IMG/VR virus record: IMGVR_UViG_3300045412_000446 | Location: 1-21,821 of that record | Length of the DNA stretch: 21,821 bases | From: a virus | Direction: 5' to 3' (one strand) | Shown: positions 7,122 to 21,617 of the stretch, piece by piece | Layout of the letters: every line of letters starts with the position of its first letter | Numbering within the stretch: position 1 is the first letter of the stretch | The notes under the pieces: generated by a model | The model's database searches: none | Seen by the model: the letters and a program-made list of their open reading frames with translations, nothing else | What the model was told of the DNA's origin: nothing | Made by a program: the position numbers and the translations under genes

Positions 7122-7526
7122 ATGAGAAGAAAAAAAGCACTCAAATTAAGGCATAAGATAGTGAGAGAAACCCTTGTACATAAGGGACCTTATGAAACCA
7201 ACAGGCGGGCTATAGATCTCTGGTTTCGCTACATCAATCGAGCAGTGTTCAACAATGAGTTGCCAAATTTCAATAAGATCATAATCAAGAAATGGCTGAA
7301 ACAGGCCATGGGGCAGGTGTGCGCCTATCCAGATAGAAATCCTAAAAGATTTGAACTGGAGATGCTGCGCAAGTACAACACCAAGAAAGATTTTATAGAA
7401 ACATTGGCACACGAGATGATACACCTATATCAATTTGCATTAAAGAAGGACACGGGCAATCACAACAGGATCTTCTACAGCTTCCGGCCAAGGTTTAAAT
7501 TTATTGGCCTAGGACTTTCTCTTTAA
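7122..7526 (+). CDS. SprT-like zinc metallopeptidase
   Basis: A 134-residue protein with the core of the SprT/Spartan family: LAHEMIHLYQ at about 95-104 gives the HExxH zinc site (His97, Glu98, His101), and His114 in NHNRIF is the likely third ligand. The upstream segment IDLWFRYINRAVFNNELPNF matches the helix before the family's beta-sheet. Eukaryotic Spartan clears DNA-protein crosslinks at forks, while SprT itself is poorly understood; the phage copy lies beside replication genes, which fits a DNA-linked substrate. It is rightward, divergent from the uvsW operon and convergent (26-nt overlap) with the glycan cassette. The N-terminus is basic (MRRKKALKLRHK). The usual C-terminal zinc ribbon is missing. 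Confidence 0.82.
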   Translation: MRRKKALKLRHKIVRETLVHKGPYETNRRAIDLWFRYINRAVFNNELPNFNKIIIKKWLKQAMGQVCAYPDRNPKRFELEMLRKYNTKKDFIETLAHEMIHLYQFALKKDTGNHNRIFYSFRPRFKFIGLGLSL

Positions 7527-8244
7527 ACACATTATAGGTCATCAACAACGTATTCTTTAGATTGGTCCCAGTCTGCAGGTGATTTAGATACTCTGGTGGG
7601 TTGTCGTGCACCACTGTGAAGCGGCAGTAGGGCCTCTGTTTTATCAAGGTTCTGAACTGTTTCAGCCATGCCTCAAATATGCTGTCATCGTTTCTTTCTC
7701 CATAGCACGGCGTATCCTGGTAGATGTTGTTCAGTTGTCCCTTGCCATATTGCCTGAAGTCAAAGCCTATGAGATAGATATTTTTATGTCCATGCACGCA
7801 GGCGGTCCACATGGCGGCCTGCCCAGAAACCCAATGCGGATTATTGGGTATGAGGTTTAGTTTGCCAGCGTACCTGTTGACCTCCAGCGAAGGAGCGTAG
7901 CATACGCATTTTTCATACACTCGGCCATCCACTATGACCTTGCTTATCTTGGAGTCGACCATGAAAAGGTAATCTGGCATGAAGTCTCTGTAGAGTGCGT
8001 TGCAGCCATACACCTGCCCTGTGGGCCTCAAAATATTAAGATCAAATCCCTGCCTGGAAGGACCGTTGCCTATTATGTAGGCATTGCCTCGGGGCACTGC
8101 CTTGACCCGGTCCTCATAGAATGCTGTCTCCAATATCTTCTGACCTTTCCTTATCACCGTGCGGACCGTGACGGTTTCACCGCTGTAGGGCTGCCATTCT
8201 ATGGGCTGGATCTCCTCATGCCTGTGTGTCCTGACTGTCTTCAT
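7501..8244 (-). CDS. DUF115/Maf-like protein of the glycan cassette
   Basis: With the start at ATG 8244 (overlapping the preceding stop as ATGA) the protein has 247 residues; a longer frame to 8349 would overlap its neighbour by over 100 nt and is rejected. The core AYIIGNGPSRQGFDLN, then VYGCNALYRDFMPDYLFMVD, and later HWVSGQAAMWTACVHGHKNI with YLIGFDFR, match the DUF115 / 6-hydroxymethylpterin pyrophosphokinase-like fold. Maf proteins of this superfamily transfer nonulosonic acids such as pseudaminic acid to flagellin; others act in lipid-glycan assembly. It is the last gene of the leftward block. Substrate and reaction are not determined here. A transferase working on a nonulosonic acid is one option, in keeping with the Kdo-transferase-like neighbours. 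Confidence 0.65.
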   Translation of the reverse strand: MKTVRTHRHEEIQPIEWQPYSGETVTVRTVIRKGQKILETAFYEDRVKAVPRGNAYIIGNGPSRQGFDLNILRPTGQVYGCNALYRDFMPDYLFMVDSKISKVIVDGRVYEKCVCYAPSLEVNRYAGKLNLIPNNPHWVSGQAAMWTACVHGHKNIYLIGFDFRQYGKGQLNNIYQDTPCYGERNDDSIFEAWLKQFRTLIKQRPYCRFTVVHDNPPEYLNHLQTGTNLKNTLLMTYNVFKEKVLGQ

Positions 8245-9116
8245 TTTATGCTGTATTTTTCCTCCAACCTTGTCCTTATCCTCATCCATGGAGTGCCGTT
8301 CCTGATCTCCTGTGTGGTCCATTCGGTGTAAGCCAATCGATTGGCCCAATTCAATCTGGCTGGCATGGCTGGTTTTTCTATGTCTCTCAGCTCCTCGTTT
8401 CCAACTTCATAACTGAGGCTGGATGGTGACACAAATACCGGCACGCCATTGATCACCGATTCCATTCCAATGTTGCTGGAATGATTGACCACTGCCCAGG
8501 CGTCATTGAGCACTTCCTTGAAATCGGTGTCGTCGTATGTGTTGGGGTCGGGAGCAGGCGCCCTAAATTTAACATTTTCAAATTTTTCTTCACTGAGCTC
8601 AAAGTAACTCCTGGGATGTGGTCTCACAATGATCTGTCTCTTGGTGTATTTCCTAATCTCCTTGATCTTTTGTTCCGCCCATTGTGCTGCCGTTGGCATC
8701 CCTTGCCATTGCAGGCTTTCTGTGTTCTGGCAACACAATAAGATATATTTGCCCTGGGATCTCCAGGGTTTCATCTCTATGTCAAACAATGGCCAACGCT
8801 TGTCATTATATTGTTGATTGGCGAAGTCCGCGTCCCTGTTGGTGCCATTGATGGCCATCTTCCATGTGTGCTCGCGTTTGATGCCACCCACTTCCAATAC
8901 CACTACCGGTCGATTGGTCGACCTAAAGCTGTCCCATACTTGTTTGTTGGCGGCCATCCTGCCCTTCCATAGCACCGACCATATGATGGCCACGTCGCAG
9001 TTGCGGTCCTCGTTGAGATGGAATTTCTCTCCCTCGTCTCTAAAGCAGTCCAGCAGTGCCTTAAAAACAGGGCGTGAGTTTATGCTGCCATTGTTTTCGA
9101 ATACCGCTATCCTCAT
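8241..9116 (-). CDS. KpsC/KpsS-like capsule glycosyltransferase, paralog A
   Basis: A 291-residue protein with start ATG 9116 (ATGA overlap with the GT-A gene). The N-terminal half (MRIAVFENNG, DVAIIWSVLW) looks like a Rossmann domain; the C-terminal half has IIVRPHPRSYFE, then AWAVVNHSSNIGMESVINGV with PVF, and ends with LAYTEWTTQEIRNGTPW. The RPHP motif and the AVV..SS...E....GvPVF loop are the donor-binding signature of the GT-B capsule polysaccharide superfamily (KpsC, KpsS, CDP-glycerol transferases). It shares its C-terminal pattern with three other genes here. It probably transfers a sugar or sugar-phosphate from a nucleotide donor in the cytoplasm. Donor and acceptor are unknown. Confidence 0.68.
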   Translation of the reverse strand: MRIAVFENNGSINSRPVFKALLDCFRDEGEKFHLNEDRNCDVAIIWSVLWKGRMAANKQVWDSFRSTNRPVVVLEVGGIKREHTWKMAINGTNRDADFANQQYNDKRWPLFDIEMKPWRSQGKYILLCCQNTESLQWQGMPTAAQWAEQKIKEIRKYTKRQIIVRPHPRSYFELSEEKFENVKFRAPAPDPNTYDDTDFKEVLNDAWAVVNHSSNIGMESVINGVPVFVSPSSLSYEVGNEELRDIEKPAMPARLNWANRLAYTEWTTQEIRNGTPWMRIRTRLEEKYSIK

Positions 9117-10021
9117 TTCAATGCTCCTGGCACTTTCTTCCAATAGTCCAACTCCAACACATTGGCCGGGGCATCCTTCATGGGAGGTCTCAGATCTGCT
9201 CTAGCACTGCTGCCCAATTTTTTTCTTTTGCCTTTCATGTGGTCCATGTATAAACCCAATTCGCTGTTGATGAACACATGATGTCCTTTGACGTTCTTGC
9301 CATAGCCAATATCATTTACCTGTATGTTATACTTCTCTTGAAATTTCCTGGCCAGATGCCAGAAAATAAAACTGTCGTGCCACTCTAGCAACTTGAACAC
9401 CTCATCTGTGATGTATAATTTTTCCCATTCTGTAACAAATTCTTGGGTGTTAGGATGTTGTAAATTATACCCTACAAATCCACACTCGGGATATTTGCCA
9501 CCATCTTTCAATGCATATCTTTCTCGGCCCAGGAAAGTCAGCATGGTATCTCGGGGTAAAAGAGTCTCAAGGAAATTCAATGGTATGGATCTAAATGTAA
9601 AAGTATCAGCATCAACCCACAGCACATAGTCATAGTTGGCGGAATTTCTCACAGCGTTGATAACGCAAAAAACTTTATTGCTGAATCTCACGGCATCCCA
9701 AAGGAACGATCCCTTATTTTTATCCAATCCACCATGTTGTTGCAGAGCAGCAGGTCTTCTAACTCCCCCCGGTATCTCTTGTAACTCTCCGCATGCCACA
9801 GGATCGTTCCGATGTTGATTTTTAAATTTCAACAACTCGGGTTCAGCCGAGTTTAGATCAATCCATGTGATTCTAGGATGATCGTAGTTGGGTTTTGGTT
9901 CCTCAAGATACACCACAAGATCGATTTCTTTCGGCCATTGTTCGGCAATGCTCTTGATACCTCTACCGGAATAGAGATCCCATGTGCCTGGTTTGTATGA
10001 GGTTATAACTTTGATTTTCAT
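9113..10021 (-). CDS. GT-A fold glycosyltransferase
   Basis: A 302-residue protein opening MKIKVITSYKPGTW, with a DxD-type metal and nucleotide-sugar motif in DYVLWVDADTF (Asp137, Asp139) and a later LGLYMDHMKGKRKK that could supply the histidine ligand. GRERYALKDGGKYPECGFVG resembles the acceptor-side loop of retaining GT-A transferases of the GT8 kind. No membrane helix is visible, so it is likely cytoplasmic. It starts 7 nt after asparagine synthetase ends and overlaps paralog A as ATGA. An insertion-like stretch at about residues 78-105 (IPGGVRRPAALQQHGG) is of low complexity compared with the rest. Sugar specificity is unknown. Confidence 0.7.
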   Translation of the reverse strand: MKIKVITSYKPGTWDLYSGRGIKSIAEQWPKEIDLVVYLEEPKPNYDHPRITWIDLNSAEPELLKFKNQHRNDPVACGELQEIPGGVRRPAALQQHGGLDKNKGSFLWDAVRFSNKVFCVINAVRNSANYDYVLWVDADTFTFRSIPLNFLETLLPRDTMLTFLGRERYALKDGGKYPECGFVGYNLQHPNTQEFVTEWEKLYITDEVFKLLEWHDSFIFWHLARKFQEKYNIQVNDIGYGKNVKGHHVFINSELGLYMDHMKGKRKKLGSSARADLRPPMKDAPANVLELDYWKKVPGALK

Positions 10022-10028
10022 ATTCTAT

Positions 10029-11747
10029 TTAATACGTCATTTGATATTTTTTAATCCAGTCTTTCATTATCCAAGCCGGAACCAGAGCTTTACTGGCTTT
10101 TTGGCTTACCGTAATTTTATCTAGTTTTGATTTGTCTCCCATATTATTTGTATAGAAGTTTTTTAAATTTTTATCAGTGCCCATGGCCAGCCATTGCCCA
10201 ATTGGCACAGTCCATCCAGTTTTTTGTTTTGTGATTATGGCGTCCGGCAATATGCCTTTGTAGGCTATCTTGGTCAATAATTTGGTATCAGATTTATTTT
10301 TTCCTATCTTATAGCTTGTGGGAATGTCCAGGCAGTACTGCATGAACATCTTTGTGGTCAGAGGAAATCTCCCCTCCATGCCAAACGACATGCCATATTT
10401 GTCGTTCCTGGCAAAGAATTCGTTTGGAGCCTGCGCAACACAATCGATAGCCATGTAAGACGCCACAGGATCTGCAGGATTCCATAGAGTGTCGGGATAT
10501 AATTTTATTAGTTCTTCTCTCAATACCGGAGTTGGCAGAGTTGGCACTCCTACCACTAGTGGTCGTTTTATTCTTTGTAACCATTTGTCTATTACGCTGC
10601 TCCATGAATTAAATTTTTCATCTTTCATTTTCCAATACTTAGGATATCCGCCCAGTATCTCGTCGCCCATGTCTCCCGCCATGGTTATGACGGTGCCTGC
10701 CTCGGATAATTTTCTATTGGTATGGTAGTACATGCTCATGCTGGGATTGTATACTGGCTGCTCCATGTAATAGATGCTGTCATTCCATGCCGCAATCACG
10801 TCATTGGGAGTGATGATGATTTCTCTGTGATTGAATTTTTCTTGATCCGCTAATATTTTAGCACAGGTGGCATCACTGTTGTAATCTTCATCTGTTACTA
10901 CATTGGGTTTCATTTTATTAGTAAATGTATTCACTGAGCCGTGTATCTTCATCATCTCGTATGCCACCACGCTGCTGTCTAATCCGCCGCTGAGGAACAC
11001 TCCCATCTGTCTTCTTCCTATGCTGCACATCTGCACAGTCTTTCTAACTCGATCTCTGAACTCCGCGGGATCAAAGGAAGAATTGGATCTAGGAGTTATG
11101 AAAATTCTTTCTGATAATTTTATTCTTTTATTTGCACAGTCATATGTGATTGTTTCTCCCGGCATCAGTTGTTTTATGTTGGAAAAAAATGTGTTTCTGG
11201 TGGCATTAATACCTGTGAGGCTCATGCAACTTATTGCCAACTGATCTATCTTCCTGGAGTTGGGCACTAGATCCAGCATGCCCTTTATCTCAGAACCAAA
11301 TATCAATCCTTCAACGGTCTCGGCATAGTATAGAGGTTTGATGCCAGCGTGATCTCTACTCAATATCAGTTGTCTCGTGTGCGTGTCGTAATAGGCAAAG
11401 GCATGCATGCTATCGATCTGTTCAACAAATTTTGCGCCATATTGGTCCAGACCCCATGCCAATAGTTCTGTGTCGCATGTGGTGCGGGGTTGGAATGCCG
11501 TGTTTTTTTTTATCAGATCAAAATAGTTAAAGATCTCTCCATTGTAGATCAATATGTTACCCCTTTCCGTTCGCCATGGCTGCTGTGACGCAGTGGGCTG
11601 ATCTGTGATGCTCAAAAGATTGTGTCCCAGTGTAACCGAATCATCGTTCCACACACCATTGCCGTCTGGTCCCCTATGGTGGCACTTCTCCATGTACTTT
11701 TTGATAAACTCTACATCTTTAGTTGTGATGCCATATACGCCGCACAT
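10029..11747 (-). CDS. Glutamine-dependent asparagine synthetase (AsnB family)
   Basis: A 572-residue, apparently intact enzyme. The N-terminal glutaminase has Cys2 as nucleophile (MCGVYGI), HRGPDG (24-29) and NGEIFNY (69-75). The synthetase domain has the PPi-loop SGGLDSS (253-259), then TMAGDMGDEILGGY and GRFPL typical of AsnB. AsnB makes asparagine from aspartate, glutamine and ATP, but relatives in polysaccharide loci amidate uronic acids or other carboxylates (as in WbpS/Alb-type genes). The position among transferases and the sulfotransferase favours glycan amidation over amino-acid supply; this is inference. GGAAGG lies 7 nt before the ATG inside the end of the sulfotransferase gene, with a 29-nt overlap. 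Confidence 0.88.
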   Translation of the reverse strand: MCGVYGITTKDVEFIKKYMEKCHHRGPDGNGVWNDDSVTLGHNLLSITDQPTASQQPWRTERGNILIYNGEIFNYFDLIKKNTAFQPRTTCDTELLAWGLDQYGAKFVEQIDSMHAFAYYDTHTRQLILSRDHAGIKPLYYAETVEGLIFGSEIKGMLDLVPNSRKIDQLAISCMSLTGINATRNTFFSNIKQLMPGETITYDCANKRIKLSERIFITPRSNSSFDPAEFRDRVRKTVQMCSIGRRQMGVFLSGGLDSSVVAYEMMKIHGSVNTFTNKMKPNVVTDEDYNSDATCAKILADQEKFNHREIIITPNDVIAAWNDSIYYMEQPVYNPSMSMYYHTNRKLSEAGTVITMAGDMGDEILGGYPKYWKMKDEKFNSWSSVIDKWLQRIKRPLVVGVPTLPTPVLREELIKLYPDTLWNPADPVASYMAIDCVAQAPNEFFARNDKYGMSFGMEGRFPLTTKMFMQYCLDIPTSYKIGKNKSDTKLLTKIAYKGILPDAIITKQKTGWTVPIGQWLAMGTDKNLKNFYTNNMGDKSKLDKITVSQKASKALVPAWIMKDWIKKYQMTY

Positions 11748-12375
11748 TGAAATCCCTTCCGTTGTGTTTTATTGCTGACCAGATGCGATCGTCTATCGTC
11801 CAGTCAAATTTCCAAACTGCTCTGAAAAATTTGTATACGTTTTCGTTGAGTTCCACTTGCGATGGAGGAGTTACATTGATCAGCTCGCGGTTCCATGGCA
11901 GGCCAAATTTGTTCTCAATCTTTTCAAACCAATTGGGACCATCGATGGCCACCAGTCTCACGGCAACTTGATCCGTGTCAAAATAATAATGCTGTGGTCT
12001 CAGAGCTCCTCCTTGTTCATTTCTTGGTCTATCCTGCGTAACAACGAGATCTGCCAGGTACGCCAGCACTCCTGGTTCATCTTTTTGATTTTTTGGTATA
12101 GACCTCGACTGCAGGTTATAACGTATTATACTATCATAACGTTCTCTGGGTGATCTAAAAGTTGTGAACCAAAACCAATCCTTGTATTCCTCTGCCGCAT
12201 ATTTCTGTCGTAGTTCTAATCCTATGATCTGATTGGCAGACAGGTGAGGGGTGTTTTTTAAACATCCACGGTTGACCTCGTTAGGGGCTATGCTTTCCAG
12301 ATATTTTGTCACGGTATGACCAGCGGTCTTTGGCACATGTATGTAAACAACTTTTAATTTACTTGAGATGTACAT
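11719..12375 (-). CDS. Sulfotransferase family protein (PAPS-dependent)
   Basis: A 218-residue protein with the two PAPS-binding signatures: VYIHVPKTAGHTV (10-22; Lys16 and Thr17 in the 5'-phosphosulfate loop) and WFTTFRSPRERYDSI (about 69-83), whose Arg74 and Ser75 match the 3'-phosphate loop. Such enzymes move sulfate from PAPS to a hydroxyl or amino group of a carbohydrate. Bacterial homologues of the sulfotransfer_2 type often occur in capsule and O-antigen loci. The length is at the short end for the family, but both loops are complete. It lies between paralog B and asparagine synthetase. A possible source of PAPS is the APS-kinase-like fusion at 20258-21037. Confidence 0.78.
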   Translation of the reverse strand: MYISSKLKVVYIHVPKTAGHTVTKYLESIAPNEVNRGCLKNTPHLSANQIIGLELRQKYAAEEYKDWFWFTTFRSPRERYDSIIRYNLQSRSIPKNQKDEPGVLAYLADLVVTQDRPRNEQGGALRPQHYYFDTDQVAVRLVAIDGPNWFEKIENKFGLPWNRELINVTPPSQVELNENVYKFFRAVWKFDWTIDDRIWSAIKHNGRDFNVRRIWHHN

Positions 12376-12381
12376 AAAAAA

Positions 12382-13365
12382 TTATAATTTCAATTTCAAT
12401 TTGAATCTACGGAACACCGTGCCATTTTTTATCTCTTCAGTGGTCCACATCTTGTATCCCAGATCATTCAACCATTGTGTCCTGTCAGGCATTTCCGGTG
12501 ATTCTATCTTGGTCAGATCTTTGTTACATACCGGCCAGCATATAGCTAGATCGGAAGTGCAGAAAGTGGGTATACCTCTCACGCAACTGTCTGTGCTGGC
12601 TGTTGAATTGTGTGTGACCACGGCATGGCAATCGGCAATCGCTTCTTGAAAATTAAATCTATAGTATTTTTTATTGTCTCCGGAGAAAAATTTGGGCCCT
12701 ATCACTAGCTCGACGTCATTGGGAAATTCTTTTGCCCTGTCTGCTATCGCTGCCATATGATTAGGATGTGGCCTCACTAAAAATTTCTTAGCAGTCAATG
12801 GTCTCAGTGTTTTATAAACTCCATTGAACCAATCAACGGGATCTAGCTCGTTCATGCTCCAGTTATCTTTGGGTTGTAGTACAAACAGTATTGGATCTTG
12901 TGAATTGGATTTCCTCCATGGTTCATTCTTGATGTTCCACAGCTTCTTCATCATTTCCCAACGATCTGGCGGAGAGTTGTCTGACAAAAAATTTCCATTG
13001 TTCATGGGGGAATATAGAGCCACCCTCCAGTGATGACGGGGATGATCCACTGTGTTTCCAAAACTGCTAAGCAGACCCCCGTCGAATGTGATGATGTATA
13101 TGCCTTTCTTCTTGGCACGTTCCACAAGGTCTCTCCTCCTGCCCTTGGTATGATGCATCTGCTTGTCCCCACCATAGCCAAACATGCAGCCGATAGGTGC
13201 GGTGGGTTCCATCTCGTCCTTGCGCCACTCTCCGGTCAGGTGCTCGTTCACTATTATGGCATTGTCTCCGCAGGCCTTTATGCCCTGGGCCATGTGGTGC
13301 AGCAGTTCCCAGCTGCCACCCCTTCGCCTGTCCTTGACCGTTCTCCTAAAGATCTCAACGTCCAT
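12382..13365 (-). CDS. KpsC/KpsS-like capsule glycosyltransferase, paralog B
   Basis: A 327-residue protein. The start is ATG 13365 because GGAGG stands 7 nt before it inside the end of paralog C; a frame to 13419 would add 18 residues without such a site. Its N-terminal half is longer than in the other copies (CMFGYGGDKQMHH, IYIITFDGGLLSSFGN). The C-terminal half has FLVRPHPNHMAA, ADCHAVVTHNSTASTDSCV then GIPTF, LTKIESPEMPDRTQW and MWTTEEIKNGT, matching the other copies motif for motif. RPHP is intact, so it may be catalytically similar to paralog A. Donor and acceptor are unknown. Confidence 0.68.
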   Translation of the reverse strand: MDVEIFRRTVKDRRRGGSWELLHHMAQGIKACGDNAIIVNEHLTGEWRKDEMEPTAPIGCMFGYGGDKQMHHTKGRRRDLVERAKKKGIYIITFDGGLLSSFGNTVDHPRHHWRVALYSPMNNGNFLSDNSPPDRWEMMKKLWNIKNEPWRKSNSQDPILFVLQPKDNWSMNELDPVDWFNGVYKTLRPLTAKKFLVRPHPNHMAAIADRAKEFPNDVELVIGPKFFSGDNKKYYRFNFQEAIADCHAVVTHNSTASTDSCVRGIPTFCTSDLAICWPVCNKDLTKIESPEMPDRTQWLNDLGYKMWTTEEIKNGTVFRRFKLKLKL

Positions 13366-14170
13366 CCAATATCCTCCATGCCCATCCGTCCTGCATCTCT
13401 TCTCTTGTGAACTGTCCATACGCTAATGAATGATAGCAGGGTTCTCTGTCCGCATATCGGGGTGTTTCTATTTTTGCGAAATCTGTTTCTGCTATGGGAG
13501 CGCATGAGTTCATTGTGTCTGTGAACACAGGCACACCCCTTGCTGTGGATTCTATGGTTACGTTGCTGTTGAATGTCACAATGGCATGTGTGTCGTTCCA
13601 ATTGATTGGTGTGGTGTTGTCCTCATTATCGTCTGGCCCTGGCATCAGTCTCCCTAGTTCATCTATTTTGCTGTCTGGATTATATCCTTTGTTTCTCACA
13701 ACTATTTCTCTATCTGTGTTTGCCCGTAGAATTTCTAAAGTTTTGGACAGCCAGTCTTCCTGTTCGAACATGACCGCCATGCTGTGCGTGGGAGGACACA
13801 CCACAATTTTACGACCGCCCCTCTTCCATGGTTCTATGTTAAAAGGAAAGGATTTTTTAAAACGATCATTGGATCTAGATTCTAAATAATTTTTTACATG
13901 ACCGTTTTTGGTTATTCTCATTAAGTAAGGACTGCCTCGACTCTCTCCCCAGTAAGGACGATCCATGAAATAGAAATCGATCTTGTTTTTTTGTGCCCAA
14001 TGATAAACCATGTTGGTGCCTCTCAATATGCCCATTAGCACAACTTTTTTGGCATCTCTCTGTTGTATCACTTGATCATATGGTAAAATTTTTGATCCTG
14101 GTAAACCTTGTTGGCACCAGTCTATGTATTTCTCTGTGGCAGGTCGGCCAGTTTTACTAAGATATATCAT
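13355..14170 (-). CDS. KpsC/KpsS-like capsule glycosyltransferase, paralog C (altered RPHP)
   Basis: A 271-residue protein starting MIYLSKTGRPATEKYIDW. It keeps the family's C-terminal pattern (THAIVTFNSNVTIESTARG, GVPVF, FAKIETPRYADREP, LAYGQFTREEMQDGWAW), but where A and B have RPHP it reads VVRNKGYNPDS. The conserved His is thus missing, suggesting changed chemistry or a non-catalytic partner. It overlaps paralog B by 11 nt and begins 21 nt after the GT61-like gene. On the minus strand TACAAT (14182-14187) stands 11 nt before the ATG, but with no convincing -35 box. The codon use is more AT-rich than in paralog A. Confidence 0.62.
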   Translation of the reverse strand: MIYLSKTGRPATEKYIDWCQQGLPGSKILPYDQVIQQRDAKKVVLMGILRGTNMVYHWAQKNKIDFYFMDRPYWGESRGSPYLMRITKNGHVKNYLESRSNDRFKKSFPFNIEPWKRGGRKIVVCPPTHSMAVMFEQEDWLSKTLEILRANTDREIVVRNKGYNPDSKIDELGRLMPGPDDNEDNTTPINWNDTHAIVTFNSNVTIESTARGVPVFTDTMNSCAPIAETDFAKIETPRYADREPCYHSLAYGQFTREEMQDGWAWRILDGR

Positions 14171-14191
14171 TTGTATTAATTATTGTATTTT

Positions 14192-15268
14192 TTATAACCG
14201 ATTAATTAATTCAAACAGTTGTGTTTTTTCAATGGATATGTTATTGAAATCTTTTTTCCTTTTTACTCCGTTGATTTTATCTCCTGATATTGGCACTTTC
14301 TTTCCTAACAACACATGATGAGATAGTCCCAAGTGATGACTCAACACAGGATAAACTTTTTTATCTAACAATTCTTTTTGACTAATTTCTATGACCTTTG
14401 TTCCAATTGGGCACCATAACAGATTGGTCAATCCGGCCCCGTGTGTGGACATCACATGACTGGCCTCTGAAAAGAGTGCTATCTGTTTTTGTAAGCTCAT
14501 CTCAGATAAAGTCACAGTTTCCCAGCCCTGCAGGGCCATGAATACTTCTTCGGCATTTATTAATTTCCTTGCAGGGGCATCATCTCTGCTAATAAAAATT
14601 TTTCTATAAGGTTTAAATTGCTGTCCAAATTTATGTCTTAACCATTTCGCTGTTTCAGGGACTGTTATACCATCTTCGTGATTGCTCATAGAAGGTGTTA
14701 ATAGGTGTGAGAACTTCCATGTGGTATTTTTAGGCATTACATAATATCTCAATTCAGGAAACAGCTCTCGTGCCACACGATCAAAATATTCACTGTGGCT
14801 ACTGAGCACATATATGAAGTCCGTGTATTTGTGGCTGAATTTTTTTTCCACTAATCTAAATTTGGATATCACGTCGATCCAGATGTGCCAGGCGTTGTTG
14901 GCGCTGTTCTTGTCAATAGGCAACCAAACATACTTGTAGGGCTCAGAGAACTGCTTGTGCGCAGTGGGCAAATTTATGTCTATGTTCTCTCCCCAGATTC
15001 GCCATAGCCCGTGTGTCTTGTGAGGTTTGTGTCGAGTTTTGTGCAACAATGGCCACACATGCGAAGTGATGAGGTGATTTTCATTCGTTACAATGAGGGG
15101 CAGGCTGTGTGCGTAACAGTCATGGAATTCGGCCACGAACGTGGGATTAGTGGTAAATGTCTTTTGGTGAGCATCTGGATGATAATCCACGGTGTATTGA
15201 TATGGCACATCTATGATGTCAAATCTTTCCTGGAAATATTGTATGGCTGTGATGTTTTTTACTATCAT
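14192..15268 (-). CDS. GT61-like (DUF563) glycosyltransferase
   Basis: Starting at ATG 15268, which follows the promoter at 15282-15309, the protein has 358 residues; the frame continues upstream to 15352 but that part lies before the expected transcript start. The C-terminal half shows the GT61 hallmark: KIFISRDDAPARKLINAEEV, then LSEMSLQKQIALFSEASHV and MSTHGAGLTNLLWCPIGTKV. These correspond to the RxxxxR.i.NE.e, vi..HGAgl.N..f.p.gt.viEi pattern of EOGT/xylosyltransferase and bacterial capsule proteins. Transfer of xylose, GlcNAc or a related sugar is typical of the family; the substrate here is not known. It is the first gene of the leftward glycan block. Confidence 0.78.
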   Translation of the reverse strand: MIVKNITAIQYFQERFDIIDVPYQYTVDYHPDAHQKTFTTNPTFVAEFHDCYAHSLPLIVTNENHLITSHVWPLLHKTRHKPHKTHGLWRIWGENIDINLPTAHKQFSEPYKYVWLPIDKNSANNAWHIWIDVISKFRLVEKKFSHKYTDFIYVLSSHSEYFDRVARELFPELRYYVMPKNTTWKFSHLLTPSMSNHEDGITVPETAKWLRHKFGQQFKPYRKIFISRDDAPARKLINAEEVFMALQGWETVTLSEMSLQKQIALFSEASHVMSTHGAGLTNLLWCPIGTKVIEISQKELLDKKVYPVLSHHLGLSHHVLLGKKVPISGDKINGVKRKKDFNNISIEKTQLFELINRL

Positions 15269-15281
15269 TGTATTCTTAATA

Positions 15282-15309
15282 ATTATACTATAAACTATTA
15301 CAATGTCCA
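15282..15309 (-). promoter_or_regulatory. Sigma70-like promoter for the leftward glycan block
   Basis: On the minus strand TGGACA (15304-15309) and a perfect TATAAT (15282-15287) are 16 nt apart. The start point would be near 15275, about 7 nt before the ATG at 15268. The -35 box lies in the first codons of the divergent SGNH-like gene. On the plus strand TATACT (15284-15289) overlaps the same -10 and stands 13 nt before the ATG at 15303, though its -35 is poor; the two directions may exclude each other. Confidence 0.6.
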
Positions 15310-15974
15310 AATTGTTTTCCAATGGCTGCAGTTTCCTTACTACCAGACCCAAGGATGGAGTTGAAACCTTTGTGACAAAGATATTAGCAGATCAATATCA
15401 ATTACCATTAGAAAATTTTGCAAAGGGCGGGCGGGGCAATGACCGCATCAGTTTCTCCACCAAGGTGTGGTTGGAGCAAAATGATACCACCAAATACTTT
15501 GCAGTGATAGGTTGGAGCAGCGCATTCAGGATGGACTATGTCGCCAGCGATGACCCCAAACCCATCAGGCATCCGGGCACCGAATTGTTGTGGCAGTGTT
15601 GGAAGATGCTAGAAAAGAAGGGTTTAAATTTCATAGATTCCTGGGGCAATTGGCACATCGAGGACACTGCCTGCTATCGCTATCTTGACAATGTTCTCGA
15701 TCTGCAGAACTATTTCAAAATAAAAAAAATTCCCTACGTGATGTACAACGCCATGCCACCTGTGTTCAATACTGAAAAGTTAGATTTCAAAGTGATTTAT
15801 CGCACAATCGATCAGCAGAGATTTTTTAGATTTAATTCAAGCCATTTTGATTTTGTAGTGGAAAACAAATTGGTCGTTGATAAAAACAGTCCTCATCCTT
15901 CAACAGAGGGACACCAACAATGGGCCAAGCTATTAAAGGAATTTATAGATGCTAACAATCTACGCACCATCTGA
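15303..15974 (+). CDS. SGNH-hydrolase-like protein of the glycan cassette
   Basis: A 223-residue protein with SGNH-like blocks: SNGCSFL with Ser10 as candidate nucleophile, GGRGND (42-47) supplying Gly and Asn of the oxyanion hole, FAVIGWSSAFR, and a C-terminal HPSTEGHQQWA with His198. Family members remove or add acetyl and other acyl groups on sugars and lipids. The acidic residue that normally stands two or three positions before the His is not there (SPHP instead of DxHP); Asp193 is the nearest. It may therefore have altered activity. It is the first gene of the rightward block and overlaps the next by 26 nt. It resembles a group of uncharacterised proteins (DUF6071-like) seen in marine phages and hosts. 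Confidence 0.6.
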   Translation: MSKLFSNGCSFLTTRPKDGVETFVTKILADQYQLPLENFAKGGRGNDRISFSTKVWLEQNDTTKYFAVIGWSSAFRMDYVASDDPKPIRHPGTELLWQCWKMLEKKGLNFIDSWGNWHIEDTACYRYLDNVLDLQNYFKIKKIPYVMYNAMPPVFNTEKLDFKVIYRTIDQQRFFRFNSSHFDFVVENKLVVDKNSPHPSTEGHQQWAKLLKEFIDANNLRTI

Positions 15975-16761
15975 CAAGCCTGATAGCAAGTGCTGGGAGG
16001 TGTTTGATGGAATCAAGAAAACTTGGCCTACTGATGTTGTCGTAAGGAACAGCAACGACACAGAGGCCAATTCTCCGGCCATGTTCTGGGGATTTGTAAA
16101 CAACAATATCAACCTCGTCCAGCAGCTGGATGATAAAAAAAATCAATACTGGTACACAGACACGCCTTACTTCGGCAGATTTGACAATAAAAATTTAAAA
16201 AATGACAATCATTATTGGAGGATCTGTAAAAACAACATACACGCCAAGTTCATAAAAGGATTGCCATCGTACAGGTTCCATAGATTTAAATTGGATATCA
16301 AAATCAGAAACAAAAATAGAGGCCGGCATATTCTTGTGTGCCCCAGCAGCCTGGGCATCCACAGATATCTAAAAAAAATAACTTGGTTAAAAGACACAAT
16401 CAATGAGATCAAAAAGCACACAGACAGGCCGATAAAAATAAGAGAGAAGCCAAGGAAAATGGGAACCAGCGGACCATCTGTGGCGGACGTGCCACTGTCG
16501 CACGATCTGCAGGACGCATGGGCCTGCGTAACCAGTTGCAGCATCAGCGCAGTGGAGGCGCTGCTTGAGGGAGTGCCTGTGTTCAGCGATGCCAAGAGCT
16601 TTGCCTGGCCCATGTCATCTCCTGGTCTGAACGAGATAGAGAATCCTTTTTATACCGATCCAACAGAATGGTGCCATTCTCTGGCCTATCAGCAGTTTAC
16701 TCCACAGGAATATGCAGATGGCACGGCAGTCAGCGTACTCAAAGAGATCGGGATGTTATGA
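15949..16761 (+). CDS. KpsC/KpsS-like capsule glycosyltransferase, paralog D (altered RPHP)
   Basis: A 270-residue protein beginning MLTIYAPSDKPDSKCWEVF; AAGGA-like sequence precedes the ATG inside the SGNH-like gene. Motifs: HILVCPSSLGIHRYL, IKIREKPRKMG (where A and B have RPHP), AWACVTSCSISAVEALLEG, GVPVF, LNEIENPFYTDPTEWCHS, LAYQQFTPQEYADGTA. It is most like paralog C in the N-terminal part (YWYTDTPYFGR versus FYFMDRPYWGES), so C and D may form a sub-pair standing on either side of the divergent promoter. The 3' half is unusually GC-rich (over 60% by eye at 16501-16560) compared with the next gene. The stop overlaps the FkbM start as ATGA. Confidence 0.65.
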   Translation: MLTIYAPSDKPDSKCWEVFDGIKKTWPTDVVVRNSNDTEANSPAMFWGFVNNNINLVQQLDDKKNQYWYTDTPYFGRFDNKNLKNDNHYWRICKNNIHAKFIKGLPSYRFHRFKLDIKIRNKNRGRHILVCPSSLGIHRYLKKITWLKDTINEIKKHTDRPIKIREKPRKMGTSGPSVADVPLSHDLQDAWACVTSCSISAVEALLEGVPVFSDAKSFAWPMSSPGLNEIENPFYTDPTEWCHSLAYQQFTPQEYADGTAVSVLKEIGML

Positions 16762-17393
16762 GGATAGAAAAAATAAATGGATTTTGGGTACCCAGCAATG
16801 ACATTCATGTAGAGCAATGGCGTCAAGGGCGGCCATTCACACAAAATAAATGTTTAAAAATTTTTCTCAAATGGTGCGACACTAATGGTAAAAAATTTCA
16901 CACAGTATTGGATATTGGAGCATGGTGTGGAACATGGAGCGCGGAGTTAGCACCATATTGTAAAAAGATAGTTGCTATTGAACCAGACCGAACACACTTT
17001 GAATGTCTTTTAAAAAATCTTTCTTCTTTCGAAAACATTGAACTACTAGACTATGCCGTAGGTGATATTGAAACTACGGTATCATTAGCCGATAATGATT
17101 TCACACAGGCTAAAAGGATACATTCAACAGGTAACATATTAATGAAGACTGTGGATTCTTTCCAATTTAAAGATGTTGATTTGATTAAAATAGACGTGGA
17201 AGGATATGAGATGAATGTACTCCGTGGAGCAAAAGATACACTAAAAAATTGTAAATTTTTAATGATAGAATTGAACAATAACGCAAAAAAATATAATTCT
17301 AGCAATGAAGATTTAGAAAAATATATTAAGGAGCAAGGTTTTAACACGATAATAGACAAATGGCCAGACAAGGTCTTTAAGAGGAATAATTAA
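16758..17393 (+). CDS. FkbM-family methyltransferase
   Basis: A 211-residue class I SAM-dependent methyltransferase. The start is ATG 16758, overlapping the stop of paralog D; a longer frame to 16668 lies wholly in that gene. SAM motif I is VLDIGAWCGTWSAELA (50-65), motif II IVAIEPDR (71-78), and the FkbM signature DLIKIDVEGYEMNVLRGA follows, with FLMIELN at the end. FkbM enzymes O-methylate hydroxyls, often on sugars, and are common in surface-glycan loci. The gene is very AT-rich (about 25-33% GC in lines counted by eye) beside GC-rich neighbours, a sign of separate acquisition. Its likely task is capping or decorating a sugar of the polymer. Confidence 0.85.
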   Translation: MRIEKINGFWVPSNDIHVEQWRQGRPFTQNKCLKIFLKWCDTNGKKFHTVLDIGAWCGTWSAELAPYCKKIVAIEPDRTHFECLLKNLSSFENIELLDYAVGDIETTVSLADNDFTQAKRIHSTGNILMKTVDSFQFKDVDLIKIDVEGYEMNVLRGAKDTLKNCKFLMIELNNNAKKYNSSNEDLEKYIKEQGFNTIIDKWPDKVFKRNN

Positions 17394-17399
17394 TATATC

Positions 17400-18401
17400 A
17401 TGAAGATTTTTATCACAGGCGTTGCTGGGTTCTTGGGATCGCATCTGGCAGATCTAATGATATCCAATGGGCACCAAGTGGCCGGTAATGATAACATGAT
17501 AGGTGGTTACAGTGATAACATACCAGAGGGGGTGGAGTTCCATCAGATCGATTGCCGGGACCTAGATAAGATGACCGAGGCCATGCGAGGCAGCGACATA
17601 GTCTACCATTGTGCCGCCACTGCCTATGAAGGATTGAGTGTGTTCAGCCCATTGTTAGTGACGCAAAATATATTTGAAGCATCAGTATCCACAGTAACAG
17701 CAGCGATAAAAAATCGTGTAAAAAGATTCGTTTATTGTTCTTCCATGGCAAGATATGGAACCAACCAAGTGCCTTTCAGAGAAGAATATGAACCTAGACC
17801 ACAGGACCCATATGGTATTGCCAAAGAAGCTGGAGAACGAGTGATCAAGAATATATGTGACACACATGGCATAGAATGGAACATAGCAGTGCCCCATAAC
17901 ATCGTGGGACCTAGACAGAAGTATGATGATCCCTTTCGTAATGTGATGAGCATCATGTTGAACAGGATGCTGCAAGGTAAAGCACCTGTGATATATGGAG
18001 ATGGTGAACAGAAAAGATGTTTCAGTTACATCAACGATTGTCTCTATTGTTTGAATGAGTTAGCATTCAATGAAAACGTCAAGGGAGAAACCATCAATAT
18101 AGGCCCAGACGAAGAATTTATCACCATCAATCAATTGTCAGAACTGTGTGCAAACGAAACAGGTTGTAATCTTGACCCACTATATTATGAGGACAGGCCG
18201 AAAGAAGTAAAATTTGCTACCTGCTCCGCTGACAAAGCTCGGAGATTGTTAAATTATCGTACCACTACCAATTTAAAAACTGCAGTGAAGAAAACTGCAG
18301 ATTATATCAGGCAGAGAGGCACACGAAAATTTAAATATCATCTTGCATTGGAGATAATCAGCGATAAGACTCCCAAAACATGGAAGGATAGATTGATATG
18401 A
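17400..18401 (+). CDS. NAD-dependent sugar epimerase/dehydratase (extended SDR)
   Basis: A 333-residue extended short-chain dehydrogenase. ITGVAGFLGSHL (5-16) is the NAD-binding glycine motif; YCSSMARYG (112-120) and YGIAK (138-142) give Ser, Tyr138 and Lys142 of the active site; VPHNIVGPRQ and GEQKRCFSYINDC are typical of the UDP-glucose 4-epimerase-like branch. It most likely epimerises, or with partners dehydrates, a nucleotide sugar used by the neighbouring transferases. Which sugar cannot be told. It follows the FkbM gene by 6 nt and overlaps the next gene as ATGA. A UDP-xylose, GDP-fucose or heptose epimerase are alternatives within the same fold. Confidence 0.86.
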   Translation: MKIFITGVAGFLGSHLADLMISNGHQVAGNDNMIGGYSDNIPEGVEFHQIDCRDLDKMTEAMRGSDIVYHCAATAYEGLSVFSPLLVTQNIFEASVSTVTAAIKNRVKRFVYCSSMARYGTNQVPFREEYEPRPQDPYGIAKEAGERVIKNICDTHGIEWNIAVPHNIVGPRQKYDDPFRNVMSIMLNRMLQGKAPVIYGDGEQKRCFSYINDCLYCLNELAFNENVKGETINIGPDEEFITINQLSELCANETGCNLDPLYYEDRPKEVKFATCSADKARRLLNYRTTTNLKTAVKKTADYIRQRGTRKFKYHLALEIISDKTPKTWKDRLI

Positions 18402-19132
18402 TATCCATCTGTTGCCCATCTAGGGGAAGGCCTAAAATGGCCAAAAGAATGCTCGACACAGCCTACGAAACTGCGAGCGACATAAAAAATATAGAATTTT
18501 TGATATATCTTAACGACGACGATCCTGCCTTATGTGAATACAAAAAACATATAGATTCAAAACATTACTGCATAGGCCCCAATCAGAGCACCTGTTATAG
18601 TTGGAACCAATTGGCAGAAAAATCAAAATATGATATAGTTTTTTTGGCAGGTGATGATATAAAATTCATGACCAAAAATTGGGATCTTAATATCAAGAAA
18701 GGTTTTGATCAGTATGATGATAAGATTTGTATGGTTGTGCCATTTGATGGCAACGGCAAGGGCAAGGGCAAGAACCTGTTAGGGCATGAAGAACCATATC
18801 TAGTAAAAGAAAAAGAATCTTTTGGTAGTCCACATTTCGCTCTACATCGAAATTGGATCAATGCGTTGGGATATTTTGCTCCGCCATGGTTCTGGCATTT
18901 TTATGTTGATACCTATAATCAAAAGATAGCAAGGAAATTAAACAGATGCGTATTACTTACAAAAACATTGGTGCAGGCAAAAAAAATTTTAGATGACACA
19001 GGAAATCTAGTTAGGAAAAATCTTAACATTTCTGTTAGAGAAAATTATGTCTGGGAGAAAGTTAGGGATAGGCATCTAGAAGCAGATGTCAAAAAATTAC
19101 AAGAGTTCATAGACAATTATAAAAAAAATTAA
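18398..19132 (+). CDS. GT2-like glycosyltransferase
   Basis: A 244-residue protein starting MISICCPSRGRP, with LNDDDP (39-43) in the nucleotide-binding position and IVFLAGDDIKF (80-90) as the DxD-like metal site, followed by FGSPHFALHRNW and FAPPWFWHFYVDTY in the acceptor region. This is the layout of short inverting GT-A enzymes of family 2. A tandem GGCAAG hexamer repeat (18753-18772) writes an NGKGKGK loop that may be a recent expansion. The C-terminus is lysine-rich and helical. It ends the rightward block and meets the opposing gene with a 4-nt overlap. The gene is AT-rich. Donor and acceptor are unknown. Confidence 0.72.
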   Translation: MISICCPSRGRPKMAKRMLDTAYETASDIKNIEFLIYLNDDDPALCEYKKHIDSKHYCIGPNQSTCYSWNQLAEKSKYDIVFLAGDDIKFMTKNWDLNIKKGFDQYDDKICMVVPFDGNGKGKGKNLLGHEEPYLVKEKESFGSPHFALHRNWINALGYFAPPWFWHFYVDTYNQKIARKLNRCVLLTKTLVQAKKILDDTGNLVRKNLNISVRENYVWEKVRDRHLEADVKKLQEFIDNYKKN

Positions 19133-19147
19133 CTTAATAAATTTTTT
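19123..19147. terminator. AT-only inverted repeat between convergent genes
   Basis: AAAAAATT (19123-19130) pairs with AATTTTTT (19140-19147) around a 9-nt loop, exactly where the two convergent genes end and share their stop codons. T-runs follow on either strand. The stem has no G-C pair, so it would be weak; it may serve as a bidirectional terminator or simply reflect base composition. Confidence 0.3.
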
Positions 19148-19590
19148 ATTTTTTCATTCGTTGTTTCGTCAAAATATAATTCACAGAACGGCCTGGTTGG
19201 TAATCTTTCACGCCTAGGCTTCACCAAAAATGTATCATGTGCATCTAGTACCAATATTGTATTCTGATAGTAGTTTAACCTTTTTTCTTCCTTACCATTG
19301 GATATCATTATGTCCTCTGCGCTGCTTTTATCAGTACGTTGCCTAAAGAACCAATAGCCGATATATCCCGATGTACGTTTAGGCATCAATGGTTTGACAA
19401 AATCTTCGTGGAAATATACATCAACATGATTATGATCAATGAATGTCTTCCATCTCTCGTGTTCCTTGTTACTCCATTGCTCGTACAAATGATCGTAGAG
19501 GTCCAATTTTAAAAAATTCTTGCAGTAGATGTGTGGTATGGGAAGTTTATGGCAGTGGTGATTTGACACTTGCCAAGCAGTGTGCATCAT
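19129..19590 (-). CDS. Orphan protein of the glycan cassette, unknown
   Basis: A 153-residue protein starting MMHTAWQVSNHHCHKLPIP at an ATG that overlaps the preceding stop (ATGA). It is rich in His and aromatic residues (HNHVDVYFHEDF, GYIGYWFFRQRTDKS) and ends YYQNTILVLDAHDTFLV, RERLPTRPFCELYFD. The end recalls the last strands of 2-oxoglutarate/iron oxygenases, where a residue-N..L.L.D stretch is followed by a partner-binding Arg, but a convincing HxD...H iron triad is not evident, so I do not claim that function. It is translated with the GT8-like gene. Possible roles are sugar or peptide modification within the same pathway. Confidence 0.55.
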   Translation of the reverse strand: MMHTAWQVSNHHCHKLPIPHIYCKNFLKLDLYDHLYEQWSNKEHERWKTFIDHNHVDVYFHEDFVKPLMPKRTSGYIGYWFFRQRTDKSSAEDIMISNGKEEKRLNYYQNTILVLDAHDTFLVKPRRERLPTRPFCELYFDETTNEKIKNLLS

Positions 19591-20261
19591 GACGAGAAAA
19601 GATTTATCAGTTCCTTCTTCCAGACGTCACTGTATTCACAATCTCTATAATTTTCGAACCAAGGTCCGCCCTCGGTATAATGTAATATTTTTGGAGTACC
19701 GTCTCGAGGTTCTTTATACCACCCCACCAACCAATTGTACACGTGAGGTAGAGATCCTATGTCAGAATCTTCCAACCAACTGAATCTATGCAGGAACTTG
19801 CCTGTTTCTTTGTTTAATAATTCTGGAGTAAGAATTCTATTTTTAGGATGGTCACAATTCCATAACACCATCGAACTCCAGTTTTTTCTAGGATACGCCA
19901 ATTGCATCTGTCCATCCATTTTTACACCCTCTGGGGGAGTGTAATCATGCTGTACGCACACAATTGCTTTGCTGTCATCACAGTATTGTTTTAGTTCATC
20001 GGCATCTATCTGCCAGACAAAATCACAGTCACAGAACACTGCCCAGCCTTGATAGCTTTGCAGGAATGGTATGAAAAATCTTGTGAATGTGAATTCTGTG
20101 CTGGCCAGTTTGTCTATTTCTCTGGTATATATCCCGGCTTCTCTTAGAGTTTTCATTTTTAAGGGAACGACCTCGACGTTTTTATTTCTGCGTTTGATTG
20201 AATGCTCACACACTTGATATGTGATATCTTCGCGAGGATCATAACCTACATATACTTTCAT
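19587..20261 (-). CDS. GT8-like glycosyltransferase
   Basis: A 224-residue GT-A enzyme. MKVYVGYDPRED is a typical GT8-like first strand; FTFTRFFIPFL leads to WAVFCDCDFVW with the metal-binding DxD (Asp78, Asp80); ILHYTEGGPWFENY near the end carries the histidine and Gly-rich loop that closes on the diphosphate. GT8 enzymes are retaining galactosyl-, glucosyl- or glycogenin-type transferases. This short form without membrane anchor is common in phages and in surface-glycan loci. It is joined by ATGA overlaps to the kinase-nucleotidyltransferase fusion before it and to the orphan after it, so it may use the sugar they activate. Confidence 0.8.
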   Translation of the reverse strand: MKVYVGYDPREDITYQVCEHSIKRRNKNVEVVPLKMKTLREAGIYTREIDKLASTEFTFTRFFIPFLQSYQGWAVFCDCDFVWQIDADELKQYCDDSKAIVCVQHDYTPPEGVKMDGQMQLAYPRKNWSSMVLWNCDHPKNRILTPELLNKETGKFLHRFSWLEDSDIGSLPHVYNWLVGWYKEPRDGTPKILHYTEGGPWFENYRDCEYSDVWKKELINLFSS

Positions 20262-21037
20262 AGTTTTCCTTCTTCTCTCATCTTCTTCCTAATGTCAGTG
20301 GCAGAGATCTTTTGTATGTTCATTGGCAAAACTATTTCTTCTATCTGATATCCAACTCCTCTGCCATAACAAATATTAGTTATGTTTGGTACTAGGGTGA
20401 TTCGAATTCTGTTGCGATAAGGTTGCAATGCTTGTTCTATATTTTTTTTAACTGTTTCAAAATCAAATGGATTATCCCCCACTCCCCGAACGTCTCGAAC
20501 CTGTATGTTTACCTGTCCCGTTTTTTTAACAATTTCTTCGAACAGTGCCTGGTGTCCTTCATGCCATGGTTGCCATCTGCCCAGCATCTGTGCTGTGGGC
20601 CTACGATTATCCCAAACATATTCTTGTATCTCATCTGCGATTCTCAGAGACCACAATTCAGCGTTCTGTGTGGGCACTCTGAAATCATATTCATCTGGGG
20701 GCACGAACATCTTATTGGTGTCTTGAAAACGTGTTTTTTTGATGGTGTCCACCCATACTGTATAATCAGCAGCAAAGTCTTCTCGAGTTCGTGGAGTAGG
20801 ACAAACAAAGTCTGCGATCACGTGTCGGCCAAGATTTAATACCTCTTGTGCTAGGCGTTTCATTCTTTCTGCCTGTCTTGTCCTGCCCTCGGGAGAAAAA
20901 TCCCAATCGTTGGCTTCTGCTCTTACTCGGTCGGCGTTCAACCAAGTGGCACCCAATATAGCGGCCAATTTGTCAGCGAGATAACTCTTGCCTGATCCTG
21001 GCAATCCCATTACTAATATTTTTTTATTTTTTGCCAT
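20258..21037 (-). CDS. APS-kinase-like domain fused to a HxGH nucleotidyltransferase
   Basis: A 259-residue two-domain protein. Residues 1-120 match adenylylsulfate kinase: Walker A GLPGSGKS (11-18), LNADRVR (34-39 region), then DFSPEGRTRQAERMKRLAQE and HVIADFVCPTPRTRE as in the APS-binding part. Residues about 150-259 are a nucleotidyltransferase: GRWQPWHEGH (153-162) with the HxGH site, and ISATDIR (244-250) equal to the family's ISxTxIR. The second motif is closer to NadM/NadR-type adenylyltransferases than to ATP sulfurylase (QxRNPxHxxH), so this is not a classical PAPS synthase. The product may be PAPS, or an activated sugar phosphate. It overlaps the HAD gene by 14 nt and the GT8-like gene as ATGA. 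Confidence 0.78.
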   Translation of the reverse strand: MAKNKKILVMGLPGSGKSYLADKLAAILGATWLNADRVRAEANDWDFSPEGRTRQAERMKRLAQEVLNLGRHVIADFVCPTPRTREDFAADYTVWVDTIKKTRFQDTNKMFVPPDEYDFRVPTQNAELWSLRIADEIQEYVWDNRRPTAQMLGRWQPWHEGHQALFEEIVKKTGQVNIQVRDVRGVGDNPFDFETVKKNIEQALQPYRNRIRITLVPNITNICYGRGVGYQIEEIVLPMNIQKISATDIRKKMREEGKL

Positions 21038-21617
21038 TGATGATTTGATATATGTGTTGCCAGTTATTTACTCGGATGATTTCTTTGTGTTCTAAACCTT
21101 GGTTGTAATCGTGATCGTATAATAATGGACGCAGGCCATATTCCAAACCTTTTTTGGCATTGGTCCATTTATCTTCCACCCACCATAAATTTGTGCCATG
21201 GAATTCCGCCAAAGCAGCATCTTTGTGATCCCCGGTTTCCAATATAAAATAATTGGTGAACACTGTGTCTCCAAACAGTTCTGCTAATCTTTTTTTTCTC
21301 AATTGCTGTGCTGGTATGTCGGATGTTTGTGATGTTATGGGTATGAATGTCCATCCTTCTGCGTGCAATAATTTAACCCAGGTCTGGGCATCCGGCATGG
21401 GCAATTGTGTTGACATCCATGCGCTCTTATTAAATTCTCTGACCAGTTCTCTGGAAAGGTCTATGTGTATGCCATATCGGATACTCATGTCATACTCATA
21501 ATCTGTATTTTCCAATTGTGGGAATCCTTTTAAGACCATCCATTTATCAAAATGGTCTTCCCATTCCAATAACACACCGTCGACGTCTGTTAGTATTATC
21601 CTATCTGATAGTGGCAT
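21024..21617 (-). CDS. HAD-superfamily phosphatase
   Basis: A 197-residue HAD enzyme with all four motifs: LTDVDGVLL (9-17; Asp11 nucleophile, Asp13 acid/base), ITSQTS (94-99) as motif II, the Lys of GDHKDAAL (132) as motif III, and WWVEDKWTNA with Asp149 as motif IV. The cap region at about 20-70 is aromatic and acidic. Such enzymes remove phosphate from sugars, nucleotides or sugar-nucleotide intermediates. Its position directly before a kinase/nucleotidyltransferase fusion recalls the order phosphorylate, dephosphorylate, nucleotidylate seen in heptose activation; that reading is inference. The alternative is a 5'-nucleotidase in phage nucleotide metabolism. Confidence 0.8.
   Translation of the reverse strand: MPLSDRIILTDVDGVLLEWEDHFDKWMVLKGFPQLENTDYEYDMSIRYGIHIDLSRELVREFNKSAWMSTQLPMPDAQTWVKLLHAEGWTFIPITSQTSDIPAQQLRKKRLAELFGDTVFTNYFILETGDHKDAALAEFHGTNLWWVEDKWTNAKKGLEYGLRPLLYDHDYNQGLEHKEIIRVNNWQHIYQIINGKK

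Follow-up and report, generated by a model that had tools for sequence, protein, structure and literature searches.

A conserved glycan biosynthesis cassette in an uncultured jumbo phage and its possible link to the phage head

The entire IMG/VR contig IMGVR_UViG_3300045412_000446 (21,821 bases; hereafter the window) carries at 7501-21617 a cassette of glycosyltransferase and sugar-modifying genes. In the reading that we prefer, to which we assign a probability of roughly 0.45, these genes direct the cytoplasmic synthesis, in the infected host, of an acidic glycan specific to the phage, whose most likely acceptors are proteins of the virion head. We rank this virion target above the remodelling of the host lipopolysaccharide (LPS) core. 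An original prediction, made from the letters of the window, had described about sixteen such genes. The cassette is confirmed, with profile support for many of its genes, and comprises 17 open reading frames (ORFs), of which the one at 19129-19590 was not in the original list. These ORFs tile the interval with short overlaps, many of them of 4 bases.

The link to the virion comes from a second gene of the type found at 7501-8244, which resembles the GT42 sialyltransferases. In a 196 kb relative, G001, a paralog that is 30% identical to the cassette gene (65290-65940; its CST-I match is under the cut-off) separates the portal gene from a gene for an acidic protein, beyond which come those for the prohead protease, the scaffold, and the major capsid protein. 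Across 80 related head-operon loci, the portal gene adjoins the paralog in 76, and an acidic prohead-core gene stands on its other side in 76; most of the loci without both neighbours end at contig ends. A transferase is therefore genetically tied to virion genes in this clade (76/80 loci). All nine records with the clade portal gene also have the paralog, and four of the relatives (G001, G003, G010, and G012) contain it together with four KpsC-like genes in one record. The jumbo phages Phosso (469 kb) and Atu_ph07 (490 kb) have no GT42-like gene between the portal and prohead genes, and both are also devoid of the cassette. Because the window ends before reaching its own head operon, we infer the presence of the paralog in its phage from these relatives. 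An unusual neighbour of the major capsid gene in G001 is a DctP-type protein (TRAP transporter solute-binding; L211:2612-3550, E 4e-29).

The protein at 7501-8244 had originally been called DUF115/Maf-like. The profile built from the protein and its orthologs matches the GT42 sialyltransferase structures CST-I and CST-II (E 1e-5), while the Pfam CST-I match falls under its cut-off. The fold matches, all of them weak, are to the DUF115 enzyme MptE (E 3.5e-4) and to mammalian sialyltransferases (E 4e-3 to 5e-2). The donor of KpsC is cytidine monophosphate (CMP)-activated 3-deoxy-D-manno-octulosonic acid (Kdo) and that of the GT42 enzymes is CMP-sialic acid, so that both families are users of CMP-ulosonic acids. 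Because the two families draw on such donors, the cassette glycan may contain ulosonic acids. A search of 12 related records turned up no CMP-sugar synthetase, and therefore the CMP-activated donors would be host-made. For the same reason, the earlier description of the cassette as a near-complete toolkit is sound as regards the toolkit but overstated as regards completeness. A literature search on Kdo in phages returned nothing relevant.

The four proteins originally labelled KpsC/S-like, which we number paralogs 1 to 4 in order of position, align as a single sequence family, whose conserved positions include an acidic one (Asp, replaced by Glu in one paralog) as well as Arg, Ser, and Glu. 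The predicted structure of paralog 2 adopts a KpsC-type GT-B fold, its top match in the PDB being KpsC itself (6mgb, E 4.9e-7), followed by KrkA and WbbB. The label thus stands by fold for paralog 2 and by sequence homology for the other three. However, none of 13 records, nor any of 28 KpsC-like family members, gave a match to the Pfam Capsule_synth profile (PF05159), and a profile search of the family alignment against PDB sequences found nothing meaningful. The likeness to KpsC and the other retaining β-Kdo transferases KrkA and WbbB consists of the predicted fold and, possibly, the acidic position conserved in the N-terminal domain, a candidate for the catalytic Asp; in contrast to these enzymes, the cassette proteins have no PF05159 match, are single-domain, occur as four paralogs, and in one genome scan were phage-only. 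That scan covered 84,980 cellular genomes with the paralog 2 alignment as query and found no cellular donor of the KpsC-like gene, a negative that is weak because two peptide patterns were used. It gave four matches, every one on a contig with other cassette genes; three of these contigs also carry phage backbone genes, and the remaining one, 3.4 kb long, has nothing but cassette genes. The family would represent a divergent branch of retaining Kdo-type transferases, apparently restricted to phages. The four contigs (L311-L314) are labelled as metagenome-assembled genomes of Gammaproteobacteria, Pelagibacter, Verrucomicrobia, and Rickettsiales; because the cassette is found there, three times with phage backbone genes, these bins probably include jumbo-phage contigs.

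Some 40 related viral contigs share the gene order of the cassette, with identities of roughly 45-100%, and a core of about nine genes is constant in order and strand over the same range. Every one of the 33 distinct contigs that were compared from UvsW to AsnB has all five of the genes that stand between these two. Among 38 contigs spanning AsnB to KpsC-like paralog 4, paralog 3 is found in 38, paralog 2 in 36, the GT61 gene in 32, the SGNH-like gene in 22, and the sulfotransferase gene in none, whereas among 28 contigs spanning AsnB to the HAD gene, the GT8-like gene occurs in 28, FkbM in 15, SDR (short-chain dehydrogenase/reductase) in 11, and GT2 in 10. KpsC-like members number exactly four in all nine records that contain the complete locus. 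The core transferases are thus fixed, while the tailoring genes (sulfotransferase, SGNH/DUF6071-like, FkbM, and SDR) are variable, and the cassettes of relatives include others, e.g., a second sulfotransferase type, a 2-oxoglutarate (2OG)-Fe(II) oxygenase, and a GNAT-like protein. In comparisons limited to those with unsaturated synonymous sites, the ratio of nonsynonymous to synonymous substitution rates is 0.01-0.1 for most cassette genes, which indicates strong purifying selection, and is higher (0.1-0.25) for FkbM and the ORF at 19129-19590. The original prediction was to be abandoned if related phages retained few of these genes, in decayed form; the cassette is conserved and not decayed in them, so that this condition did not refute it.

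In the mechanism that we propose, soluble KpsC-like and GT42-like enzymes would take CMP-activated ulosonic acids (Kdo or sialic-acid-like) from the host, and the kinase, nucleotidyltransferase, and HAD proteins would, as a guess, supply or trim activated sugars. The tailoring enzymes (sulfotransferase, methyltransferase, epimerase, and SGNH/DUF6071-like protein) would vary the exterior of the glycan. The acceptor would be a head protein, because the clade keeps a GT42-like paralog between its portal and prohead genes. Assembly in the cytoplasm, already suggested by the original prediction, is supported by a hydropathy check, which detected no transmembrane segment in the cassette proteins, and by the absence of the Wzx flippase (PF01943) from 11 related records. 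The accompanying claim that no flippase or export gene is in view likewise holds for the window, where Wzy and an ABC-2 exporter were covered by the hydropathy check only and not by a family search.

The same soluble enzymes could also act on the host. The LPS or lipooligosaccharide core, or another surface glycan, might be remodelled from the cytoplasm and delivered by the host exporter, e.g., to block superinfection. We consider this doubtful, although it is the most serious competitor. The solved structures related to the KpsC-like fold are Kdo transferases of capsule and LPS synthesis, a phage flippase is unnecessary for LPS core assembly, and changing tailoring genes would suit an arms race at the cell surface. 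The glycosyltransferases of pelagimyophages (PMC7029224) and the LPS gene clusters of some jumbo phages (PMC13282480) have both been interpreted as modifying the host surface. On the other hand, such remodelling leaves the fixed head-operon transferase unexplained, and the cassette encodes neither a transmembrane protein nor a lipid-carrier enzyme.

Several further points weigh against a head acceptor. In bacteria, the relatives of KpsC, GT61, GT8, and FkbM usually have capsule or LPS as their target, and soluble cytoplasmic enzymes build the LPS core too. The cassette lies among replication genes and not among head genes. The donor is deduced from family membership, and the scores of the fold matches, with a TM of about 0.5, are moderate. 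Moreover, the co-occurrence of the cassette and the head paralog counts as a single data point, because their gain may have been one lineage event. Among the targets originally offered, the virion protein nevertheless gains from the head-operon transferase, host LPS-core remodelling remains in contention, and DNA is the least supported.

It is very improbable, in our judgement, that the cassette serves to glycosylate or hypermodify the DNA of the phage. This is a known role of phage glycosyltransferases, and replication genes adjoin the cassette. However, no thymidylate synthase-type hydroxymethylase (PF00303) was found in 11 related records, all of them fragments, which is why DNA ranks last, and four Kdo-transferase-like enzymes, a sulfotransferase, and FkbM are more than known DNA glycosylation requires. 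Another DNA modification could be served by genes for GTP cyclohydrolase I and radical SAM proteins that G001 carries at other sites. The two clusters that contain them (L214:71-13452 and L215:5744-14364) encode eight or more radical SAM proteins, several of which have SPASM domains, together with a carbamoyltransferase, a DegT aminotransferase, epimerases, and IMP dehydrogenase-like and GTP cyclohydrolase I proteins; their product might be an unusual sugar or a modified base.

It also seems unlikely that the cassette is a mixed, hypervariable island whose metabolic genes have no single common product. The sulfotransferase, SGNH-like, FkbM, SDR, GT2, and kinase/nucleotidyltransferase genes are patchy, as expected of such an island, and the last is common outside the cassette too. 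The core, in contrast, keeps its order and strand with four KpsC-like paralogs every time, and the overlaps between the cassette genes are operon-like.

A nucleotide search with the whole window against phage records gave no match. Its UvsW helicase is 55% identical to that of Phosso and 52% to that of Atu_ph07, and the Phosso gene order (UvsW, a DnaE-like protein, the start of the primase, and a virion structural gene) is kept. Because of this identity and common gene order, the window is, on sequence grounds, a piece of an uncultured jumbo phage related to Polybotosvirus. The cassette is surrounded by replication genes and adjoins UvsW; in G001 it has the UvsX/SSB/TerL side on one flank and UvsW on the other. 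In Phosso and Atu_ph07, the flanks of this slot are kept, with unrelated small ORFs and no cassette gene inside. Between the cassette and the replication genes of the window, an SprT-like metalloprotease-type gene (7122-7526, E 1e-9), oriented opposite to its neighbours, is kept in 33 of 33 contigs. Two other contigs, L178 and L179, have UvsW and the kinase/nucleotidyltransferase gene but no GT42-like gene or KpsC-like paralog 1 in the 7.6 kb beside UvsW; they possibly represent a related lineage without the cassette.

Table 1. Genes of the cassette and the adjoining backbone gene, with window coordinates and the matches or occurrence that characterize them.
Feature	Position	Strand	Evidence and occurrence
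UvsW helicase, backbone gene marking the insertion slot	4262-5731	-	Pfam ResIII, phrog_16; 55% Phosso, 52% Atu_ph07
GT42 (CST-I/II sialyltransferase)/DUF115-like putative glycosyltransferase	7501-8244	-	ortholog profile vs CST-II/CST-I E 1e-5; weak fold match; 33/33 contigs between UvsW and AsnB
KpsC-like (retaining Kdo transferase-like) GT-B protein, paralog 1	8241-9116	-	family alignment, motif columns; Glu replaces conserved Asp; 33/33 contigs
GT-A-type putative glycosyltransferase, DxD (VDAD)	9113-10021	-	DxD invariant in orthologs; no firm Pfam family; 33/33 contigs
AsnB-type glutamine amidotransferase	10029-11747	-	Pfam Asn_synthase E 9e-48; above TIGR01536 cut-off; 1ct9 E 4e-32
Sulfotransferase, variable gene	11719-12375	-	phrog_3347 E 8e-5 (weak); only in window and its near-identical contig
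KpsC-like protein, paralog 2	12382-13365	-	AlphaFold2 pLDDT 86.5, pTM 0.86; Foldseek best: KpsC, KrkA, WbbB
KpsC-like protein, paralog 3	13355-14170	-	family alignment; 38/38 contigs between AsnB and paralog 4
GT61 glycosyltransferase	14192-15268	-	Pfam PF04577 E 2.5e-21
SGNH-like/DUF6071-related protein, variable gene	15303-15974	+	DUF6071 matches in ortholog set; 22/38 contigs
KpsC-like protein, paralog 4	15949-16761	+	family alignment; 26/28 contigs
FkbM methyltransferase, variable gene	16758-17393	+	Pfam E 9e-17; 15/28 contigs
SDR nucleotide-sugar epimerase/dehydratase, variable gene	17400-18401	+	Pfam E 5e-44; 11/28 contigs
GT2-like glycosyltransferase, variable gene	18398-19132	+	phrog_14945 E 2e-25; 10/28 contigs
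Protein with no clear family	19129-19590	-	no clear family by profile; 16/28 contigs; absent from original prediction
GT8/GT24-like glycosyltransferase	19587-20261	-	phrog_28018 E 2e-52; GT8 matches in ortholog set; 28/28 contigs; homologs in Mosig, S-SCSM2R
P-loop kinase fused to nucleotidyltransferase (GRWQPWHEGH motif)	20258-21037	-	Pfam AAA_33 E 6e-11, APS_kinase; phrog_10255 E 2.5e-61; 15/28 contigs
HAD-like phosphatase	21024-21617	-	DVDGV motif; phrog_420 E 1e-26; motif and PHROG only

In delimiting these genes (Table 1), we set ORF starts at 8244, 9116, 13365, and 16758, stops in orthologous stretches having ruled out longer versions for three of them, and picked the start of the GT61 gene, 15268, by ortholog length. 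The AsnB, GT61, FkbM, SDR, kinase/nucleotidyltransferase, GT2-type, and GT8-type calls agree with Pfam or PHROG matches, as does, weakly, that of the sulfotransferase. The HAD call draws on its motif and PHROG_420 only. The SGNH call was not confirmed, DUF6071 being the only notable family that the ortholog scan reached. When the orthologs of the two GT-A-type proteins were scanned jointly, 5 of 15 matched GT8. An NCBIfam scan of ten window proteins gave names to the SDR and AsnB proteins only. The closest family of the former is LegB, with a score far under the cut-off. AsnB passes the asparagine synthase test (303.7 bits against the TIGR01536 equivalog cut-off of 267.1), although it might alternatively act as a sugar amidotransferase. 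The kinase/nucleotidyltransferase is a candidate for the enzyme that forms 3'-phosphoadenosine 5'-phosphosulfate for the sulfotransferase, but only its kinase half resembles adenosine 5'-phosphosulfate kinase, and the gene is widespread outside the cassette too.

Because Mosig, S-SCSM2R, and the moraphages have related sets, glycosyltransferase clusters of this sort are already known in phages. In the pelagiphage Mosig, a smaller cluster encodes homologs of the GT-A and GT8-like proteins, two KpsC-like proteins, FkbM-like methyltransferases, and an annotated sulfotransferase; in the stretch searched, Mosig has no homolog of the cassette AsnB or GT61. Mosig and HTVC008M (PMC7029224) likewise carry GT42-like genes, but they are smaller T4-like phages in which these genes lie outside the head operon. 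In the Pelagibacter phage HTVC008M, two such genes (L315:752-4980) stand beside a carbamoyltransferase and 2OG-Fe(II) oxygenases. The large cyanophages S-SCSM1 and S-SCSM2R have cell-wall/LPS gene sets made up of different genes from those of the cassette. Near KdsB and KdsA, S-SCSM2R encodes a homolog (45%) of the GT8-like protein, and a profile search of the stretch examined found no KpsC-like gene. In mycobacteriophages, phage enzymes reportedly place glycans on capsid and tail subunits; that system is said to involve fewer glycosyltransferases and an actinobacterial host, whereas the present cassette is known from its genes alone. In the moraphages, which are aquatic jumbo phages with Bacteroidota as predicted hosts, the core includes four glycosyltransferase orthogroups of unassigned target, and the parts of their description available to us mention neither such a cassette nor a head-operon transferase (PMC12619734). 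A partial literature search found no earlier description of the fixed four-paralog core or of the head-operon transferase.

On a larger scale, we tentatively suggest that an uncultured clade of jumbo phages may make its own Kdo-/sialic-acid-like glycan and fix it to the head by a dedicated head-operon transferase, with tailoring genes exchanged among phages varying the coat, in a scope comparable to the self-glycosylation of giant viruses. Clusters of glycosyltransferase genes occur commonly in large marine phages and jumbo phages, but which target they serve (DNA, host LPS, or the virion) has usually been guessed. With the fixed cassette and the head-operon transferase, the virion option takes a concrete form that mass spectrometry could test. 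Should these phages bear an acidic and variable virion glycan, it would have a bearing on their adsorption, on their encounters with grazers or host surfaces, and on the abundance of tailoring genes in their genomes.

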